From NCBI RefSeq assembly GCF_028728065.1, contig NZ_CP117811.1:868001-932000 (forward strand): a stretch of 64,000 bases of DNA, read 5' to 3'. This document shows, one piece after another, positions 49,184-58,832 of this stretch. A program made the position numbers and the translations under genes. How positions within the stretch are numbered: the stretch's first letter is position 1; each line of letters begins with the position of its first letter. The stretch comes from Lentisphaera profundi (GTDB taxonomy: Bacteria; Verrucomicrobiota; Lentisphaeria; Lentisphaerales; Lentisphaeraceae). The notes beneath the pieces are model-generated. The model saw only the letters and a list, made by a program, of their open reading frames with translations, had not been told where the DNA came from and searched no databases.

Positions 49184-51154
49184 TTATTGCTTGAAAGGCT
49201 GAAAAGAGAAATCTTTGATTTCGATTTTTAGTTGACCTTCTAAGGATTGGATGCTGATTTTTTCTAAATCCTGAAGGCTGGCTACAGCGGGGAGATTAAC
49301 CGCAATAGTTTGATACTGATCATTCGTATTTTTTAGGCTAAGATAAATTTCGTCACTCATTTCATTAAGACCAAATCTGCTATTGGGACTACGCTGAAAA
49401 GTCAAAACAGCTTTTGTTGCACTTGCAGATTTATAGTTCAGAATAAGTTGGCCATTGCTTAAACTGGAGTTTTTATCCAAGATGAAATTAATAGACTGAT
49501 TTTGTGGTGCTGAAATCATTTTGTTTTGAGCGAAAATGGCTTTTTCTCCTGGAGCATAAAGTTTAGTTAAAGCTTTGTTGAGTTGACGGTGATCGAGGTA
49601 GCGCTGCATATTTTCGGGAGCTGAATTAATCAGTCCCAAGATAAGTGCAAGGGTATGTGCCGAGGTTTGAAACTCGATGACTTTTTTCTGTGTGGTATTG
49701 TAGCCTTCCCATGGACCGTGATCAGTAAGTAAGAGTGAAATAGTTTCCCAATTGCGCTTTAAGAGTTGTTCAACTTCACGAGGACGGTACATACTGGCAA
49801 CACCCAGTGAGTAAAGCGATGCAGCATCAGTAATGCGGTCTTGATCTGAGAGGCAATTTGTAGGGAGACCGATATGTCCAGTATATTCTGTTTTATTACC
49901 GGTATATGATTCGGACAGAAAGCCAGGGAGTTGATTTTGCTCAGCAAAATCAAGGTGGGCATCAACGGCGGTTTGCATAAGTGAATTCCAAGCAGGAGTT
50001 TCTTGGTCTTTCATAAAGTTAGTTAAGCCAAAAAATTGAAACGCGGAGCCATCCCAAGTAGCGAGTGAATATAAATCTTTACCAGAGCTATGTGGATAAG
50101 GCTTGATTTTGAAGGCGGCATTTGCGAGTGCCGCAATATCTAAATTATAATTGAGTACAGTGAAAGTCCATGGCCCGCGAAATTCATTAATGAAAGAATT
50201 CATGTGGGCTTCTTTGAAAACGCCATTGACGTCCCAACCCGTATAAGTATCATTAGTCGCATCCCAGCCAAAGAGGAATGATTGAGTTTTTTTATCCAGC
50301 ATGAAATCATAACCTGCTGCTTGATTATCGAGAAAAACTTGTAGCTCTTGACGCATTTTAATAGCTTCAGATCTTTCTTTAATACTAGGGTGGAGTAGGG
50401 CACCAATAGCTTTTGCTACTGAGGCCGTTAGATTGACATTGTCACCAAAAATAATATTCACTACACGCTGATCAAGAATTTCCATGATGCGGTACTTATC
50501 TTGTTCATACTTGGCTAAATTATCTTTAAAATGCTCAGTTCCGTACTTTTCCGAACGGCGAATATTTGCCCATGAGCCATCTGACGAAGCTTCGAGCCAG
50601 CTGGCAGCGACAAGATCATTCCAAATAGCTTCACCATCGAGACCATCTAGTGCTTTGATGAATTTGGCTTTGCCGGCTTTTTCACCCAAAGGACCGACGC
50701 GCTTACCTGAGCCATTGCCAAGGTCTAAGAAATTCACCAGAAGGCCTTTTGCGGAAAGCGCAGGATTTTTTTGATCAGCCAAAAGGCTCGCCGTTGTTTT
50801 TTGCAGGGCTATGAGTGCTTGCTCACGACTCAAATAATCCGAATCACAATAACCAGCACTAATTGATGCGCTAAGTTCCAACCATTCGCCAATAGCGGAG
50901 AGTTGAGTAAAACTTCTTAAAAAGAGGCCTCTCTCGGGATCTTGATTCCATCCTTCAAGGGGATAACCAGAATCTTTATCAATCATAGCATTTTCAGTTT
51001 TGATAAACTTGAGAGAGTTATCTAGCAGTGCGTGGGTATGATTGTGCTTCGATGATATTTTTGGGGCATGAGTACTTGTTCTAGTTTCGGTACGAGTGTG
51101 TACACAGGAACTAGCAAGCATTAGGCAAGAGCTAAGTAAAAGGATTTTTTTCAT
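49184..51154 (-). CDS. Lipoprotein with glucoamylase-like (PF10091-type) domain
   Basis: A 656-residue lipoprotein (lipobox ASSC, Cys17). The mature part looks like an alpha/alpha-toroid of the glucoamylase-like family: RSFTQLSAIGEW, GLLVNFLDLG, a WDGSAFQFFGL motif (comparable to the WxGSxFE motif), a SESYTG turn, then DHGPWEGYNT and TSAHTLALILGL...NMQRYL. A beta-sandwich follows near 560-650. Families of this fold include endo-beta-1,2-glucanases, which fits the neighbouring GH94 gene, but the catalytic acid is not identified here. It is the third gene of the locus, 32 bp after the membrane protein (in its corrected frame). Confidence 0.5.
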   Translation of the reverse strand: MKKILLLSSCLMLASSCVHTRTETRTSTHAPKISSKHNHTHALLDNSLKFIKTENAMIDKDSGYPLEGWNQDPERGLFLRSFTQLSAIGEWLELSASISAGYCDSDYLSREQALIALQKTTASLLADQKNPALSAKGLLVNFLDLGNGSGKRVGPLGEKAGKAKFIKALDGLDGEAIWNDLVAASWLEASSDGSWANIRRSEKYGTEHFKDNLAKYEQDKYRIMEILDQRVVNIIFGDNVNLTASVAKAIGALLHPSIKERSEAIKMRQELQVFLDNQAAGYDFMLDKKTQSFLFGWDATNDTYTGWDVNGVFKEAHMNSFINEFRGPWTFTVLNYNLDIAALANAAFKIKPYPHSSGKDLYSLATWDGSAFQFFGLTNFMKDQETPAWNSLMQTAVDAHLDFAEQNQLPGFLSESYTGNKTEYTGHIGLPTNCLSDQDRITDAASLYSLGVASMYRPREVEQLLKRNWETISLLLTDHGPWEGYNTTQKKVIEFQTSAHTLALILGLINSAPENMQRYLDHRQLNKALTKLYAPGEKAIFAQNKMISAPQNQSINFILDKNSSLSNGQLILNYKSASATKAVLTFQRSPNSRFGLNEMSDEIYLSLKNTNDQYQTIAVNLPAVASLQDLEKISIQSLEGQLKIEIKDFSFQPFKQ

Positions 51155-51186: not shown

Positions 51187-51369
51187 TTATAATTGTGGCT
51201 TGAGATAAGATTTGACTAAATTTTTCGCTTCAGCTTCATAAAAGGCACAGCCCAAAACATAGCTTAAACTTACAGTAGAGTTTTCAGTGAAAGTGAGTTC
51301 ATGCAGTAATCCGCTAGCGGGATCATGATGCCATTGTCGTTGTTTGCTAGGATTTTCAAATAAGGGGGC
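51187..51369 (-). other. Out-of-frame C-terminal tail of the giant membrane protein
   Basis: In the frame one base back, this stretch encodes about 59 residues that continue the GH94-like sandwich (PLFENPSKQRQWHH, LLHELTFTENSTVSLSYVLG, AEAKNLVKSYL) and end in TAA at 51187-51189. In the frame of the upstream gene it gives a meaningless 30-residue end instead. The shift point is probably the five-base G run at 51364-51368 (C run on the coding strand). Confidence 0.7.
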
Positions 51370-54300
51370 ATCGATAATTTGTGCCTAAGATATTTATCTG
51401 GCGCTGATTTTGAAGCGAGGAAACCGACCATTGAAGTTGTGGGCTGTAAGGCATAAAGTGCATTAGAACCAGGTTCTAAGAGTACTTCTTGGGATTCACG
51501 TTGCTCTGCCTGACGAAGTAAATCTTCTTTCATATTATCTAAACACCACTCAAAATACGGCATCAGTCGGAGGCTTCTGTCTTGATTTTTTAAGTTCTTG
51601 ATTTTTAGATTCATAAAGCATACCGCATCTTCTTTAACGGGGATATCTAGAGTCAATTCAAAAGTAAATTCATTAGAGGATTGTGTAGCAATAATCGTTC
51701 CATTTTCTTTTTTGATTTCGGCCTTATCAAACAGTTTAAACCAGCGCTCACCTTCTTGAATTAAAAATGATGAGGCTTGTGATTTGTGATCTATGTTTTG
51801 GTGACGACTCACAGTGATGTTAGAACGAACACCATGCGTTGAGGACAAAATCTGCCCATGTGAATTCAATGAGACCTGAAATTGTTGATTAGAAATGGAT
51901 TGAGCTTTTTCTGAACGTCTCTTTTTGAAACAAGAGAAAAGAAAAAGAATAACTGTCAACAAAGTAATGAGTAGAATTATTTGAGGGATTGAGATAGAGG
52001 CGGCCACAAGTGGCTGAGCTTTATCTTGAATGCCCAAAGCAGTAGTCCAGGCATAATCCCAGTCTTGGCCAGAACGAGGGATATAATAGGGGATCAAGAG
52101 TGGAGCCCAAGTCATAAAGCGTTTTACGCCCTCAGGAATGACTGAACCCGCCTTTCCTGTTTTATCTATAAAACGACTAAAGCGTGTATCTAAGTCATCC
52201 ATACCAATAAAACTGAGGTTCACTAAAGTGGCAACCCGAAGGCCCATGTGATCTAACCAAATGAGGATTCTAAAACCTTCATAGGCCATGATCCACATAA
52301 AGATTTCTAGGCTCCAGCTATGAAATTGATCCGAAGACATAGTGAGGTCGGCGCCGATACAAAACAAAGTGTGAACGGCTCCATCTTGATTATACCAAGT
52401 CGCTTCGGGCATCTGACGTAGGAAAGTGAAAATAATGGGTGACATCCACAGTCCCCAACGCAAAACTCTGATGGTGCCTTCTGCTAATTCAATGGCGCCT
52501 TCTCGTGAAGCTAAACGTTTAAGGTGAATGGAGTTCTTTTTAAAGATGGCAGTTAAGAGTGATTGATTTAGGGCAAAGAGCCACGCCGCAACACCCCAGC
52601 CAATAACACCATTGAGGGCCTGATTAAACAAGAGCTTGGAGCCACCTGTATAATCACCTAAACTAATATGACCCCATTTGGAAAGCAGGTTATCGAATTG
52701 ATAGGCTTGCGGAGCTATACCAAAAGTATTGTACTTATTAAAACGCTCTAGGACCACAGGAATTTGTCCCGCATCGAGATAAAAAGCGATTGCGGCACCA
52801 ATAAAACCACCTTGAATTGCGGCAATAAGTGATGATTTTATACTCTCGCCACCTTTCTTGTTGAGCTTGTTTATACCTGCAAAAGCCAAGGCTCCAGCGA
52901 CTAATCCAAATAAAGCTCGGATACCAGTATGCTGTTCACTGATTTGCCAATGAATGGCTAAAGCTAGGGCGATACCCACAATTAAGCCACGCATGTAAAG
53001 TGATTTATCTTTATAGGAATCTCTGCTTCTCTGCAGGAAGCTATGGCTGCCATCAAAACTTTCTATGATAGTTTTGATTAAAGGATAGAGCAGCGACAGA
53101 GAAAGACTTAATACGAGGAGAGGGGCAAAATTATAGAAATCGATAAATAACTGCCAGTGACCAAAGATATGTAAGATTTGGATAAGCAACATTAATGACC
53201 CTGCGTACATGCGACCATTGCCACGTCCTGTTGCGGCGTGGTCATGAATAGTGTGAGCCGCGGGTCCTTGTCCTTTGATGGCATCGAGTAAGACACCCGT
53301 AATCATGAAAACAAATGCCCATAACATGCCTTGGGAAAAAGCGGTCGTAATCACAGCGAAGGCAGCTTGCACGAGTCGTGGGAAATTAAGTAGGAAATCT
53401 GCAGAACCCAAATCAGCGATAAAAGGAGAGAGGCCCAAGGAGAAGCATAGGTAAATAAGTTTTTTATGAGCATTACGATCATAGATCACATGTTTATTAG
53501 TGATATAGGAAAGTGCATTTATCGTAAATTCAACAATGAAGAATACTATGCCAAAGCGTAGTAGGGCGAGGGCAATGGGATTGTAGTAGGACCAGCTTTT
53601 TAGTTTATCGGGTAAATCGCTGGCTAAACTCAGTAAGAGATCGGCATTTTGTAAGCTTAATAAGAGCGAAAAAATGATGGGTAGAGAAATAATGACTGCA
53701 GAAGAAAAACTGGAAAGGGATTTCTTAAAAGTTTTAATCAGGTATAAATGACTACAGTGATAAAGCACTAATAAAATAGCGGCCCCAAAACCTCCAATTT
53801 TAAATAAATCCGACCAAGAATTTGGCGTGTGCCAAACGGGGTTTGAGCTTATGGAAATAATAATAAAGCCAGGGAATAAAGTGTGGGTGAACGTTTCTTT
53901 GAAATTCGGAAGTCGCGATTGATAAGTGATTTTTAACAAGATTAAGATCGCTGCGTTCATAGCAAAGAGTGCAAGCATATAAGGAGCGCGTTGAAGAGCA
54001 ATAAAATCAGATAAGCCATAGCCAAGAAATGCGCAAGAAATGATTAAAGCAAGAATTAAACTATGAGTAAAAACTTGTGCTCTTTGACTCAATTTTGAAA
54101 AAGGTATTTTCTTCAAGAGCTTAAACAATACTGCCATTATAAATACAAATATGAGTAGAGAAATGAATTTATTTTTTGTGGCTAAGTTTTCTGGAATCGT
54201 CAAAGCTTGAAAATGTATATCAAAGCTAAGCTCTTGGGTGATCAATTTTGAAGAAGGATTGTGTATAAGAAAGACGAGCTCATTTAACTCACCCACGTGA

Positions 54301-55088
54301 TTCCAATCGATTAATATTTCTTCATGTGCACGACTTAGATTAAGGATTTGTGTCGTTTTACTTCCTTTGAGTTCTAAGCTAAAACTGAGTCCATCTAATT
54401 CATGGTGTTCACTACGAGTGAAACTGAGTATCTGACTTTTATTAATTGTCTGGGGGTATTGCTTTGACCAGAAACCTGCAATCGAATTAGCTGGTAGCGC
54501 GAATTGTAAACTTTGTGAATTATCGGCTGGCTCTACAGCATAGCAAGTGGCGCCATCCATAGCGAGAGCGCCAGATTCTTGAGCATTTGCCAAGCGGGTG
54601 ATTACATCCCTTTGATAGGATGCTTGCTTGAGTTCTGTACTAGGCCAATTAGCTAAAGAAAAATCAAAATTAAGTTGGCCTTTACTAGTCGTTTCTGAAT
54701 TGTTATAAGCGAGAAAAACAAGCTCTCGTAATTCTCCTAAAGTATCTTCATCAATGAGTATTTTTTGACTTTGGCTACTAATGGGGATGGATTGAATTCC
54801 GCGAGTGCCTTTAAGTTCAATTTTTAATTGTAAAGCATCTAAATTCTGTTTCGATTCTAAGTGAAATACTAAATAATCTTTTACGGGATTTTTGCTGAGT
54901 TTATACCAAGTGCCGATACTTGAGTGTTTAGGTAAAGTGTAATCAAGAATATGAGAATCATTACTTTGATAAGCTTGCCCTTGAGCGCCATCCATATGCA
55001 GTATGCCCGAATCCACTTGATTAAGAGCATAAGAACTAGCGGCCTGTGAAAAGACTAAGAGAAAAAGAATCTGTTTGAGTAAATGCAT
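51270..55088 (-). CDS. Giant membrane protein with N-terminal tandem sandwiches and GH94-like C-terminal domain, frameshifted
   Basis: 1272 residues as read. After a signal peptide (about 1-22) come two homologous beta-sandwich domains (about 24-150 and 172-297, each starting SGxLxMDGA), then about 14-16 membrane helices (300-1090) with conserved text WYNQDGAVHTL, LIWLDHMGLRVATLVNLSFIGMDDLD-type region and IPEGVKRFMTWAPLLIPYYIP. A C-terminal GH94 N-terminal-type sandwich follows (about 1110-1260). The last 30 codons are out of frame; the real end is probably TAA at 51187. Relatives in this bacterial group join a membrane part like this to full GH94 domains. A glucan synthesis or export role is inferred from context. 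Confidence 0.6.
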   Translation of the reverse strand: MHLLKQILFLLVFSQAASSYALNQVDSGILHMDGAQGQAYQSNDSHILDYTLPKHSSIGTWYKLSKNPVKDYLVFHLESKQNLDALQLKIELKGTRGIQSIPISSQSQKILIDEDTLGELRELVFLAYNNSETTSKGQLNFDFSLANWPSTELKQASYQRDVITRLANAQESGALAMDGATCYAVEPADNSQSLQFALPANSIAGFWSKQYPQTINKSQILSFTRSEHHELDGLSFSLELKGSKTTQILNLSRAHEEILIDWNHVGELNELVFLIHNPSSKLITQELSFDIHFQALTIPENLATKNKFISLLIFVFIMAVLFKLLKKIPFSKLSQRAQVFTHSLILALIISCAFLGYGLSDFIALQRAPYMLALFAMNAAILILLKITYQSRLPNFKETFTHTLFPGFIIISISSNPVWHTPNSWSDLFKIGGFGAAILLVLYHCSHLYLIKTFKKSLSSFSSAVIISLPIIFSLLLSLQNADLLLSLASDLPDKLKSWSYYNPIALALLRFGIVFFIVEFTINALSYITNKHVIYDRNAHKKLIYLCFSLGLSPFIADLGSADFLLNFPRLVQAAFAVITTAFSQGMLWAFVFMITGVLLDAIKGQGPAAHTIHDHAATGRGNGRMYAGSLMLLIQILHIFGHWQLFIDFYNFAPLLVLSLSLSLLYPLIKTIIESFDGSHSFLQRSRDSYKDKSLYMRGLIVGIALALAIHWQISEQHTGIRALFGLVAGALAFAGINKLNKKGGESIKSSLIAAIQGGFIGAAIAFYLDAGQIPVVLERFNKYNTFGIAPQAYQFDNLLSKWGHISLGDYTGGSKLLFNQALNGVIGWGVAAWLFALNQSLLTAIFKKNSIHLKRLASREGAIELAEGTIRVLRWGLWMSPIIFTFLRQMPEATWYNQDGAVHTLFCIGADLTMSSDQFHSWSLEIFMWIMAYEGFRILIWLDHMGLRVATLVNLSFIGMDDLDTRFSRFIDKTGKAGSVIPEGVKRFMTWAPLLIPYYIPRSGQDWDYAWTTALGIQDKAQPLVAASISIPQIILLITLLTVILFLFSCFKKRRSEKAQSISNQQFQVSLNSHGQILSSTHGVRSNITVSRHQNIDHKSQASSFLIQEGERWFKLFDKAEIKKENGTIIATQSSNEFTFELTLDIPVKEDAVCFMNLKIKNLKNQDRSLRLMPYFEWCLDNMKEDLLRQAEQRESQEVLLEPGSNALYALQPTTSMVGFLASKSAPDKYLRHKLSMPPYLKILANNDNGIMIPLADYCMNSLSLKTLL

Positions 55089-55151: not shown

Positions 55152-58100
55152 TTAGCTATAAACTTCAACGATATTGGACTCATCATTGAGTAAAGATCTG
55201 AACTTGGACCATTTAGTTTTTAATCCCCCATCACGGTAGGGATTATCGCTAGAGGTATTTAACTGAAGTTCTTGACCATTGAGTATAACTTTCTTCTCTG
55301 TGGCTTTGTTGTATTGGAAAACAACGGGCTTGCCATCAATATCGAAATTGAAGTTTAAGCCATCGAGTTCGGCAGGCAATACTGGATCAATAACAAAATC
55401 TTCGTAGAAACGACGAATGCCTAGTACGCGAGTGATCAAGAGGTTTACATAGATACCAGGGCCTGATGAATATATTCTCCATCCACCCTTAGACTTTACT
55501 TGACCTGAGCGCAGTTCTTCCACAGTATCTTGAGCTTCATAGCGATCGTTATAATCGGCATCAGAACTAGAGAAATAACAGTTGGACTGACGGATTTCGG
55601 CCGATTCAAAAGAATCTTGAATGTTGACGGGATTCACCACTTGCATAGCGGTCATCAATTCTTCGGCTTTGCCGAGCTTTGCCATGGCTTCCATGTACCG
55701 TAAATGAGCGTGGACATAGTGATTGCCAATTTCGCGACCGACAAAAGTTGCGGTTTCCGCACGTTGGAAAGATTTGGAAATGCCCCCAGTATACTGTGGT
55801 GGAGGATCCATGAGATGAACGCCATCAGCAAAAAGAAGTTTGTCGGCAATCATTTCGCTGTGATTTTCAGCTTGCTCAGGATCAAATATTTCAGAGATGA
55901 TACCGCGTATAGCAGGTAAAAGTCTATACTTCACACCCGTGCTCTTATCTTGTGGGTGAAGTAGTAATTCAACATCATCAGGAGAATTAAAGAAGGCAAA
56001 ACCCGCGGTGAGATCATCCTTTACGAGGTACTCATTGAAATCAATTTTCATTTGAGCGCAGATTTGAGCGAGTTCTTCGGCAAGTTCTGTTTTGCCAGCT
56101 TTCTCACAAACGACTGTGTAGCGACTGAGTGTTTGGTAAAGTAATTCTACGGTCCAAACCGAAACGAGTTTTTCGCGCATCTCTGGATTAGCAGGCTGAA
56201 GTGAATCATTCCAGTCACCATCGCCGTAACTTATGAGCTTGGTATCACCTATAAAAGACTTGCGAATATTATCGAGTTCTTTATTAATATGCTCAAAAAG
56301 AGTTTCTTCTTTATCAGTGAAGTTAAAGCCTTCAATATTAGTATAAGCAATTTTCTCATCGAGAATACTGAAGTCATTTGAGTACTCCACATAGTCGCAA
56401 AGGGCTTTTAGAGGCCATACAATGATATCACCATGAGCGTGTGCCTGTTGAATATCAAAGAATTTATCAAACATGAACCATTGTGGCCATTCGCCATTTT
56501 GCTCATACTGATGCTTGTAAACTTCGAGGATGACATCTTTTACCGCATCAGTTTTCCCAAAGGCTAAAAGGAGTTCTACGGGTCCTTGGCAAACATCTCT
56601 AGTTCCCCAGGCCGCCCCTGAATATTGCTCAAGTCCATAGGGCTTAGTGTAGTGAATCATGGCATTGTGCTGCAACCATGGGATTAGCTCGGATATTTTT
56701 TCTACAGCAGGGTTTTTATTGCCAAAGAGGCGGGCGTTATTATTGAGTTTGCTCCAATAAGCATCGGCTTCTTTGGAAAAAATACTGGTGTCAAAATCTG
56801 CCGCGGTGTATTTCTTGGCATTGGCATCGGCTTTAATGTCATCAGTAATTGTACCCGTGAGCACTATTTCAAAAGAATTTGTAGCGTCAGTCGAAATACT
56901 GGCATAGGGATAGTTTTTAAATTCGCCATCATTAAAGAGCACTTGATCACCCTTAAATTGGCTCGCGACTTGTCCATCTTTTACCGATATATCAAAACGG
57001 CTTTTTGGGTACTTATTTTTACCAAAGTAATCGTGTCCAGGAAATAAAGTGAGGCGACCTTCTGCTTGGCGTCCCACCGTTTCATTGGCGTATTCATTAA
57101 CACCCATGATAATATTGTTACTTATAATGAACTCTAGGTCACGTCCGGATTCGACTTCAATATTAGTCACCACAACTGCATCGGAAATAGCAGACTGAGT
57201 TGTTACAATAATAGTTTCTTCTGCACTCTTATATATCCAGCGACAAGCATTCAAACGTATTTCGAAAGCGGATGGCATGCGCAATTGCTGCCAGTTATCA
57301 TTGACTTTAACAAAAATTCGCTGACCCGAAGCGCGTTGTATATTGAGCCAACCACGAACAATGCCAATAGCTTTATTAAATGAGGTATTACCAAAAGTAA
57401 CCTGTGAGTTAAAGACACCTGCCATCCAGCAAGTTGAAGCAATGGCTTCATCTGATGGGGCGAGTTCTTCGCCAGAACGGATGATGTGACCATGAGGGCG
57501 TTCGCAATGGATTTCTTTGTGTTTTAAGACAACGTGACGGCTATCCTCACCATAGAAAAAGGCGGCTTTTTTGCCATTGATATTTTCTAGATTACGGAGG
57601 TCTGAAGAAAAGTATTTTTCAATATCATCATCATTGAGATCTTCACTTGGGAAGAAATCTCCACGATCAAAAATGTTTTGATGAGAAGTACTTTTATGAT
57701 CTTCTAAATGAACTTCACTTAGTTTGGCGAACTCTTCTTGTGCTGAAGTGAATAAAGCTAAATCCGCATCGGAACATATTTCTGGATGATCCACTGAAAA
57801 GGAGGCGAAGAAAGTACAACTAGCACTCGTATTGGCTTCAATAGAATAAGTTTTTGACTGTAGTCCATGAAGTGAAAATTCACCTTGTTTGCGAATGGAT
57901 GCTAATTTTTTCTGACTGAGGGCGGCAGGCTGACTACTTTCTTTGTACTCGAGGCCAAAGAACTGCATACCGTCGGTAATGAAGCTTTCTGCACCATCTA
58001 AGGCACCAGACATAAGGAAAGGAAAACCGGTGTGTTGCTTAAGGTTTTGTCTTGAGCAAATTAATTGACCCGTATTTTCGTCACTGATGATGGTGTGATC

Positions 58101-58568
58101 TATGTATTGAGAAACATAGGCCTCGTTATTAAGTGATGCGCCTTTGGCCGCGACGCCCGCATCTTGGATATAGATGAAGTCGATATCTTTCTTTGTTGAA
58201 CCGGTATTTTCTACTGTTGCGGTCCAGAACCATTGATTGCTTTGTGGCGCGAGACGGAAATCTAAGTGATACTTACAGCCCAAGGCGGAACCTGTATAGG
58301 AAATGGCATTATCACTTGTCGACTGTGCTAATAAGGCATCTTTATTGATTAAAGGCTTACTTGTGATCGTGGAACCTTCTTTTACACGGAGATAAATATT
58401 GTTAATCGATCCATCGAAAACGTTGCCCATAAATAGATTGACCATGACATCATCATTTTCAATACTATAGAAACTGCCATCTTGGAGTAAACGTAGGTGC
58501 ATGCCTGTTTCATTGCGGAATTCGCTAAATCCCAAAGTGTGTTCGTAGCGATATTTGATTTCTTTCAT
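55152..58568 (-). CDS. GH94 family glycoside phosphorylase, probably acting on beta-glucan
   Basis: An inverting phosphorylase-type enzyme of about 1138 residues. Two N-terminal sandwich regions (about 1-280 and 340-620) precede an alpha/alpha-barrel with SGAAWGTRDVCQGPVE, GEWPQWFMFDKF, GDIIVWPLKALCDYVEYSND and the acid-bearing YGDGDWNDSLQPA (about 781-793). The length and two-sandwich form point to 1,2-beta-oligoglucan phosphorylase rather than cellobiose phosphorylase, but the specificity is not proved. There is no signal peptide, so it should work in the cytosol. I use the ATG at 58568, which opens MKEIKYRYEHTLG; a TTG 39 bases upstream is the other option. First gene of the locus. Confidence 0.78.
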   Translation of the reverse strand: MKEIKYRYEHTLGFSEFRNETGMHLRLLQDGSFYSIENDDVMVNLFMGNVFDGSINNIYLRVKEGSTITSKPLINKDALLAQSTSDNAISYTGSALGCKYHLDFRLAPQSNQWFWTATVENTGSTKKDIDFIYIQDAGVAAKGASLNNEAYVSQYIDHTIISDENTGQLICSRQNLKQHTGFPFLMSGALDGAESFITDGMQFFGLEYKESSQPAALSQKKLASIRKQGEFSLHGLQSKTYSIEANTSASCTFFASFSVDHPEICSDADLALFTSAQEEFAKLSEVHLEDHKSTSHQNIFDRGDFFPSEDLNDDDIEKYFSSDLRNLENINGKKAAFFYGEDSRHVVLKHKEIHCERPHGHIIRSGEELAPSDEAIASTCWMAGVFNSQVTFGNTSFNKAIGIVRGWLNIQRASGQRIFVKVNDNWQQLRMPSAFEIRLNACRWIYKSAEETIIVTTQSAISDAVVVTNIEVESGRDLEFIISNNIIMGVNEYANETVGRQAEGRLTLFPGHDYFGKNKYPKSRFDISVKDGQVASQFKGDQVLFNDGEFKNYPYASISTDATNSFEIVLTGTITDDIKADANAKKYTAADFDTSIFSKEADAYWSKLNNNARLFGNKNPAVEKISELIPWLQHNAMIHYTKPYGLEQYSGAAWGTRDVCQGPVELLLAFGKTDAVKDVILEVYKHQYEQNGEWPQWFMFDKFFDIQQAHAHGDIIVWPLKALCDYVEYSNDFSILDEKIAYTNIEGFNFTDKEETLFEHINKELDNIRKSFIGDTKLISYGDGDWNDSLQPANPEMREKLVSVWTVELLYQTLSRYTVVCEKAGKTELAEELAQICAQMKIDFNEYLVKDDLTAGFAFFNSPDDVELLLHPQDKSTGVKYRLLPAIRGIISEIFDPEQAENHSEMIADKLLFADGVHLMDPPPQYTGGISKSFQRAETATFVGREIGNHYVHAHLRYMEAMAKLGKAEELMTAMQVVNPVNIQDSFESAEIRQSNCYFSSSDADYNDRYEAQDTVEELRSGQVKSKGGWRIYSSGPGIYVNLLITRVLGIRRFYEDFVIDPVLPAELDGLNFNFDIDGKPVVFQYNKATEKKVILNGQELQLNTSSDNPYRDGGLKTKWSKFRSLLNDESNIVEVYS

Positions 58569-58832
58569 GTGAGTGAATAGGTCCTTGTGTTTTATGTATT
58601 TACACAAACTACGAATGATTAGGGTAGGGTTTTGACATCTAAGGTCAGAATAAAGTGAAGAAAAATGTCGTGACTTTAGATAATAAGTTCATAATGCAGG
58701 GCCTTCAGGAATCTGTAAAAAAGTAAAATAGAGTGACTTACTACGTAAAATTTTAGAAAAATGTGCAAAGACACTTCACGGATGAATTAAAGGTGTTAAG
58801 CTATGAAAAATTAATTTAAAACTGAGATTTTC

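Follow-up and report, generated by a model that had tools for sequence, protein, structure and literature searches.

A probable assembly indel near the 3' end of a gene for a GH94-type membrane protein in Lentisphaera profundi

A gene for a large polytopic membrane protein of L. profundi loses its reading frame near its 3' end, and the remainder of the coding sequence continues in the -1 frame. Comparison with related sequences indicates that the native state is one continuous protein, ending at the TAA of the -1 frame. We consider the frame break most likely to be an artefact, namely an assembly indel in a gene that would be whole in the organism. The window analysed (the whole stretch of 64,000 nucleotides) comprises bases 868001-932000 of contig 1 of the L. 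profundi genome (two contigs, 5.46-Mb). The features concerned are the following, in window coordinates.

51270..55088, minus strand: 0-frame ORF, 1272 aa, a polytopic membrane protein with a GH94-type supersandwich domain at its end; the last 30-odd codons lie outside the native frame
51187..51384, minus strand: -1-frame tail, 65 codons plus TAA, the native C-terminus
51351..51381, minus strand: zone containing the frame change; junctions throughout fit the congeners about equally (680-690)
51364..51368, minus strand: run of five C named in the first-pass annotation, inside the zone and without distinction from its neighbours
49184..51154, minus strand: downstream gene, 656 aa, lipoprotein-like start, a distant relative of beta-1,2-glucanases
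55152..58607, minus strand: upstream gene, a predicted SOGP-type phosphorylase (SOGP_N E 1.7e-72, SOGP_2nd 9e-64, Glyco_hydro_94 4e-21, SOGP_4th 3.1e-11)

The frame break and the C-terminus of the protein

The 0-frame ORF runs on the minus strand from 55088 to 51270, with its stop at 51270-51272, whereas the -1 frame contains no stop from 51384 down to the TAA at 51187-51189. The run is GGGGG on the plus strand and thus CCCCC on the coding strand, and all the coordinates given for it and for both frame ends by the first-pass annotation are correct. The 59 residues that it counted in the -1 frame are reproduced when counting starts at the C run (junction at 51366). It had also regarded the -1 frame as meaningful sequence, and this is confirmed: the 65-residue tail finds the end of the gene in both congeners, and the codon usage fits. 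Over the overlap the codon-usage log-odds are 9.98 for the -1 frame versus 0.87 for the 0 frame; within the window, true frames have a mean of 8.2 (sd 3.8) and shifted frames of -3.4 (sd 3.6). The description of the sequence as GH94-sandwich-like agrees with a match (E 4.7e-8) of the Pfam model GH94_b-supersand (PF06165), which covers residues 1064-1217 of the protein read in the 0 frame. The 0-frame protein alone scores 33.3 bits, against a gathering cut-off of 23, and nothing but this domain was found in a Pfam search of the window protein.

The homologue search with the 1272-aa protein covered 59 genomes (its own, those of two congeners, three others of the family and the rest of the same class). 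A homologue was present in three, the genome itself and both congeners (L. marina and G002), and in each congener a single ORF, 1262 or 1264 aa long (intact frames of 1265-1267 codons), encodes both the body and the tail. The tail alone matches the ends of these ORFs with E 7e-14 (48% identity) and E 2e-14 (51%). Tail and body are equally conserved, with identities to the congeners of 48-53% versus 50-52% (by BLASTP 50 and 53% for the tail, 50% for the body). The remaining tail matches, 14 sites in 11 genomes from outside the genus, are at chance level (E 0.05-0.97).

A collection of species genomes was scanned with the alignment of the three sequences, and the best 80 of 119 relatives were kept, L. 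marina included; they come from Omnitrophota, Elusimicrobia, Planctomycetota, Verrucomicrobia, Desulfobacterota-type bacteria and others. Relatives with an ORF aligned beyond residue 1195 of L. marina number 65 of the 80 and are examinable at the break point; in the other 15 the alignment ends earlier, through a contig end or divergence, and is uninformative there. Among these 65 (of the best 80 of 119), 64 read through the break point in frame. The exception (L044) might pass for another break very close to this position, and was set aside since an undetermined base (N) sits there. The alignment reaches L. marina position 1241 or beyond in 63 of the 65; the other two are L044 and L026, the ORF of the latter running on in frame for another 805 residues. 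At least 300 residues follow the aligned part in 60 of the 65. Two of the 15 uninformative relatives (L022 and L067) have their stop codon before the C-terminal domain (near L. marina residue 1040) and not at the break position; only 17 and 99 bases separate these stops from the locus end.

Orthologues that end with the shorter frame were thus found neither in the congeners nor among the wider relatives. The first-pass annotation had proposed that one missing C would restore a single protein. The single protein is upheld by both congeners and by 64 of the 65 relatives, but restoration by one C specifically is not, the zone of possible junctions being wider than the run. The idea that the truncation merely reflects the missing GH94 catalytic part in Lentisphaera was rejected, because the congener proteins still hold the tail.

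Other irregularities were seen elsewhere in the family. In four relatives (L046, L068, L072 and L086) the N-terminal and membrane parts occupy two ORFs that differ in frame, as though they belonged to two genes, and in one Elusimicrobia locus (L056, 4299-10633) the GH94 part is split across two ORFs in different frames.

The position of the change was examined by joining the 0-frame and -1-frame peptides at every codon and scoring each junction against both congeners (summed). All junctions from 51381 to 51351 score 680-690, compared with 422 for the 0 frame alone, and the top plateau of 690 extends over 51372-51363. The C run, the longest mononucleotide run in the zone, falls within this plateau and equals its neighbours. 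The earlier placement of the shift at the run is therefore an assumption: the run does lie inside the zone, but it is not singled out among equally good junctions. An alternative site at 51389-51383, CTT AGG C, of the type used in yeast +1 frameshifting, was ruled out, as a +1 shift leads into the wrong frame.

Other frame breaks in the L. profundi assembly

As a control on assembly quality, 1.064 Mb of L. profundi was compared with stretches of L. marina (1.6 Mb) and G002 (0.2 Mb). The L. profundi stretch has homologues of 272 L. marina genes, of which four are split there by a net -1 change (modulo 3), the net change at the membrane-protein gene being -10 (modulo 3 = -1). Conversely, none of 272 L. 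profundi genes finds a split homologue in L. marina. Neither this difference (Fisher p = 0.062) nor the pooled one (5/365 vs 1/462, p = 0.063) is significant, and the excess of frame breaks in the L. profundi assembly is suggestive only. Within the window no further gene was split among those with a homologue in the compared stretches. The further cases lie on contig 1, the names of the first three being read from the sequences.

555429-556342, contig 1: epimerase-like gene, net -1 break, A6 in the zone
734037-734974, contig 1: AraC-like regulator, net -1 break, G6; 89-93% identical to its homologue
970405-971168, contig 1: CobS-like gene, net -1 break, T6 in the zone
647370-648340, contig 1: transposase-like gene, net -1 (modulo 3) in one of two control runs
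199120-200831, contig 1: sulfatase-like gene, versus G002, net -55 (-1 modulo 3)

Absence of the transposase-like case from the other control run is perhaps due to another copy being the best match. Mononucleotide runs of at least five occur in 25% of random genic zones of 38 bases, the size of the membrane-protein case, and runs of at least six in 5%, 9% and 13% of zones of 23, 37 and 56 bases, the sizes of the other three; the comparison is only suggestive, because the thresholds were picked after the cases had been seen. A general undercalling of homopolymers is not apparent from run-length counts, because long homopolymers are not rarer in L. profundi than in the congeners.

Several candidates were dropped from the count of frame breaks. 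Two regions (162272-162883 and 201758-202204, joined coordinates) are antisense-like ORF matches. At 594923-595617 the frame differs (net +8) ahead of the likely start codon, and 740637-741260 is an in-frame stop (net +69). The two rows at 841780-842160 represent an in-frame stop in a 127-aa ORF that is 97-100% identical and probably not protein-coding. Another in-frame stop, at 201085-201831 (two rows), lies in a gene that shares 84-86% identity with its homologue, and in view of it true pseudogenes may exist in the L. profundi genome. The congeners yielded four rows in the same control. Three belong to G002: a frame break within the final 28 residues of a gene of 367 aa, an in-frame stop in an ORF of 132 aa, and one near a gene start; the fourth is an in-frame stop near a gene start in L. 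marina. By gene count, G002 shows one frame break, near a gene end, when 47 L. marina genes are compared with it, and none for 99 L. profundi genes.

Explanations of the break

The first-pass annotation had listed a sequencing error, real inactivation, phase variation and programmed slippage as possible causes. We favour a technical indel because the tail is undecayed, the break is unique, its -1 direction is shared with other breaks and like cases occur in the same assembly. The assembly, but not the cell, would then have an indel (net -1 modulo 3) somewhere within 51351-51381; the gene would be intact in the organism, and the real protein, polytopic in the membrane and with a GH94-type supersandwich domain at its C-terminus, would end at 51187 like its congeners. 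The break is absent from both congeners and, with the exception of L044, from the 65 examinable relatives (of the best 80 of 119). The GeneTack survey of prokaryotic genomes expects singleton frame breaks that BLAST has validated to be sequencing errors (PMC3711429); the L. profundi break is like these in that homologues read through and no examined relative shares it, and we found no point of difference from the singletons described there. PMC12007338 describes a long-read assembly whose main indel error is false deletion at short homopolymers, mostly after four to five identical bases. The gene-fragmenting errors described there resemble the present case as net -1 breaks of single genes, in or near mononucleotide runs and several per assembly; L. 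profundi differs in that the cases are few, their excess is not significant and long runs are undepleted.

The undepleted homopolymers speak for a genuine indel in the sequenced strain, either a strain-level inactivation or a mutation in culture, which truncates the C-terminal domain. The assembled sequence as it stands shows just such a truncation; moreover, the genome has other breaks, an in-frame stop among them, and none of the other broken genes is obviously essential, as would be the case for true pseudogenes. In a structure model of the L. marina C-terminal domain the equivalent of the tail (residues ~176-229) comprises strands 183-185, 189-198 and 203-213 and a helix at 216-227, so that the 0-frame protein would be without the end of its domain. 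However, the sequence past the break has not decayed relative to the body, the operon genes upstream and downstream are intact, and none of the relatives examined has the break in common. Given the undecayed tail and the intact flanking genes, such an indel would have to be very recent, and we regard it as a possible but rather unlikely origin of the break.

Both remaining causes on that list are without positive support as regulated events. Phase variation would have a tract in the zone, for example the five C, vary between cells and toggle the C-terminal domain. Among random genic zones of such size only 1.6% contain a run of at least five C or G, but five C would make a short contingency tract; the junction is not bound to the run, and the aligned stretch of both congeners lacks a comparable C run. 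We think variation of this kind very improbable. Programmed -1 frameshifting, by which some of the ribosomes would slip within the zone and continue into the tail, seems to us the least probable of all. The 0-frame codons ATG CCC CCT hold the tetramer C_CC.U and TAT TTG holds U_UU.G, the former of which is ranked as shift-prone in E. coli, with a range of 0.26-5.6% given (PMC4066793). Their presence means little, because the gene contains Z_ZZN tetramers in 134 of its 1271 codon pairs and C_CCY in 10. An X_XXZ_ZZN heptamer was sought and not found among the 0-frame codons of the zone, the two tetramers being all that was present, and RNA folding is no better than that of shuffles in three downstream stretches (z = -0.77, 0.00 and +0.89). 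A run of five C is also short for slippage. Slippage of RNA polymerase often needs at least eight identical bases or two shorter runs acting jointly (PMC3711429). A conserved frame transition, finally, is seen in neither congener, both of which read the whole protein without any shift, nor in the 65 examinable relatives, where the one that does not read through breaks at an N. A break that truly exists in the cell and is regulated, be it by a varying tract or by inefficient -1 recoding at a C-rich site, would give two protein forms, one of them without the end of the GH94-type domain; we consider this most doubtful.

Domain composition, neighbourhood and family

The C-terminal domain of the protein resembles cyclic glucan synthases (CGS). 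Its profile matches 8rf9 (E 2.8e-32), and the L. marina model (37/63 sequences used, pLDDT 79.2, pTM 0.81) gives a TM-score of 0.79 by query length; this model also resembles other GH94 supersandwich domains, e.g. that of cellobiose phosphorylase 8hob (E 7.3e-12). Further likeness to CGS is found in three of three full-length relatives, which carry a second supersandwich stretch and a catalytic GH94 domain beyond the aligned part; no glycosyltransferase or glycoamylase-type match was found in them with Pfam. The Lentisphaera proteins differ from CGS in having no catalytic GH94 part. They end after the first supersandwich, with the SOGP-type gene separate upstream, and most of the relatives examined (e.g. 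L003, L004 and L021) have the catalytic GH94 domain fused.

A second difference from CGS is the membrane domain, which has no Pfam match other than to GH94 and no PDB match by profile or fold. This polytopic domain of ~640 aa (window ~52010-53950, minus strand; 7063-8985 in L021) is strongly conserved in many phyla, and in other phyla it is fused to a CGS-like GH94 part. Searches with it gave no convincing match in Pfam or NCBIfam and none in the PDB by profile at E <= 1; its model from L. marina (641 aa, 26/57 sequences, pLDDT 75.7) gave none by fold at E <= 0.001. Our guess is that it forms part of a glucan transporter or synthase.

The upstream gene is above the Pfam cut-off for all four SOGP models (N-terminal, supersandwich, catalytic and C-terminal). 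The 656-aa downstream gene has no Pfam match; its family profile matches the beta-1,2-glucanase EeSGL1 (8xuj, E 1.1e-6) and, weakly, the CGS transglycosylase domain 8wy1 (E 0.16). Because the membrane-protein gene sits between an SOGP-type phosphorylase gene and a beta-1,2-glucanase-like gene, the operon probably serves beta-1,2-glucan utilisation or processing, as is also suggested by the neighbourhood of the same three genes, which are adjacent and kept in this order in L. marina. Homologues of the 656-aa gene adjoin the membrane-protein gene in several other phyla as well.

If the break were real and switchable, L. profundi would have an unusual phase-variable glucan-processing membrane protein. 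With an assembly indel as the favoured cause, reads are needed before this gene or the few others broken in the assembly are labelled as pseudogenes or as recoded. The gene belongs to a widespread family, and the conserved membrane domain of that family, unmatched in Pfam and the PDB, is a better lead than the frame break.
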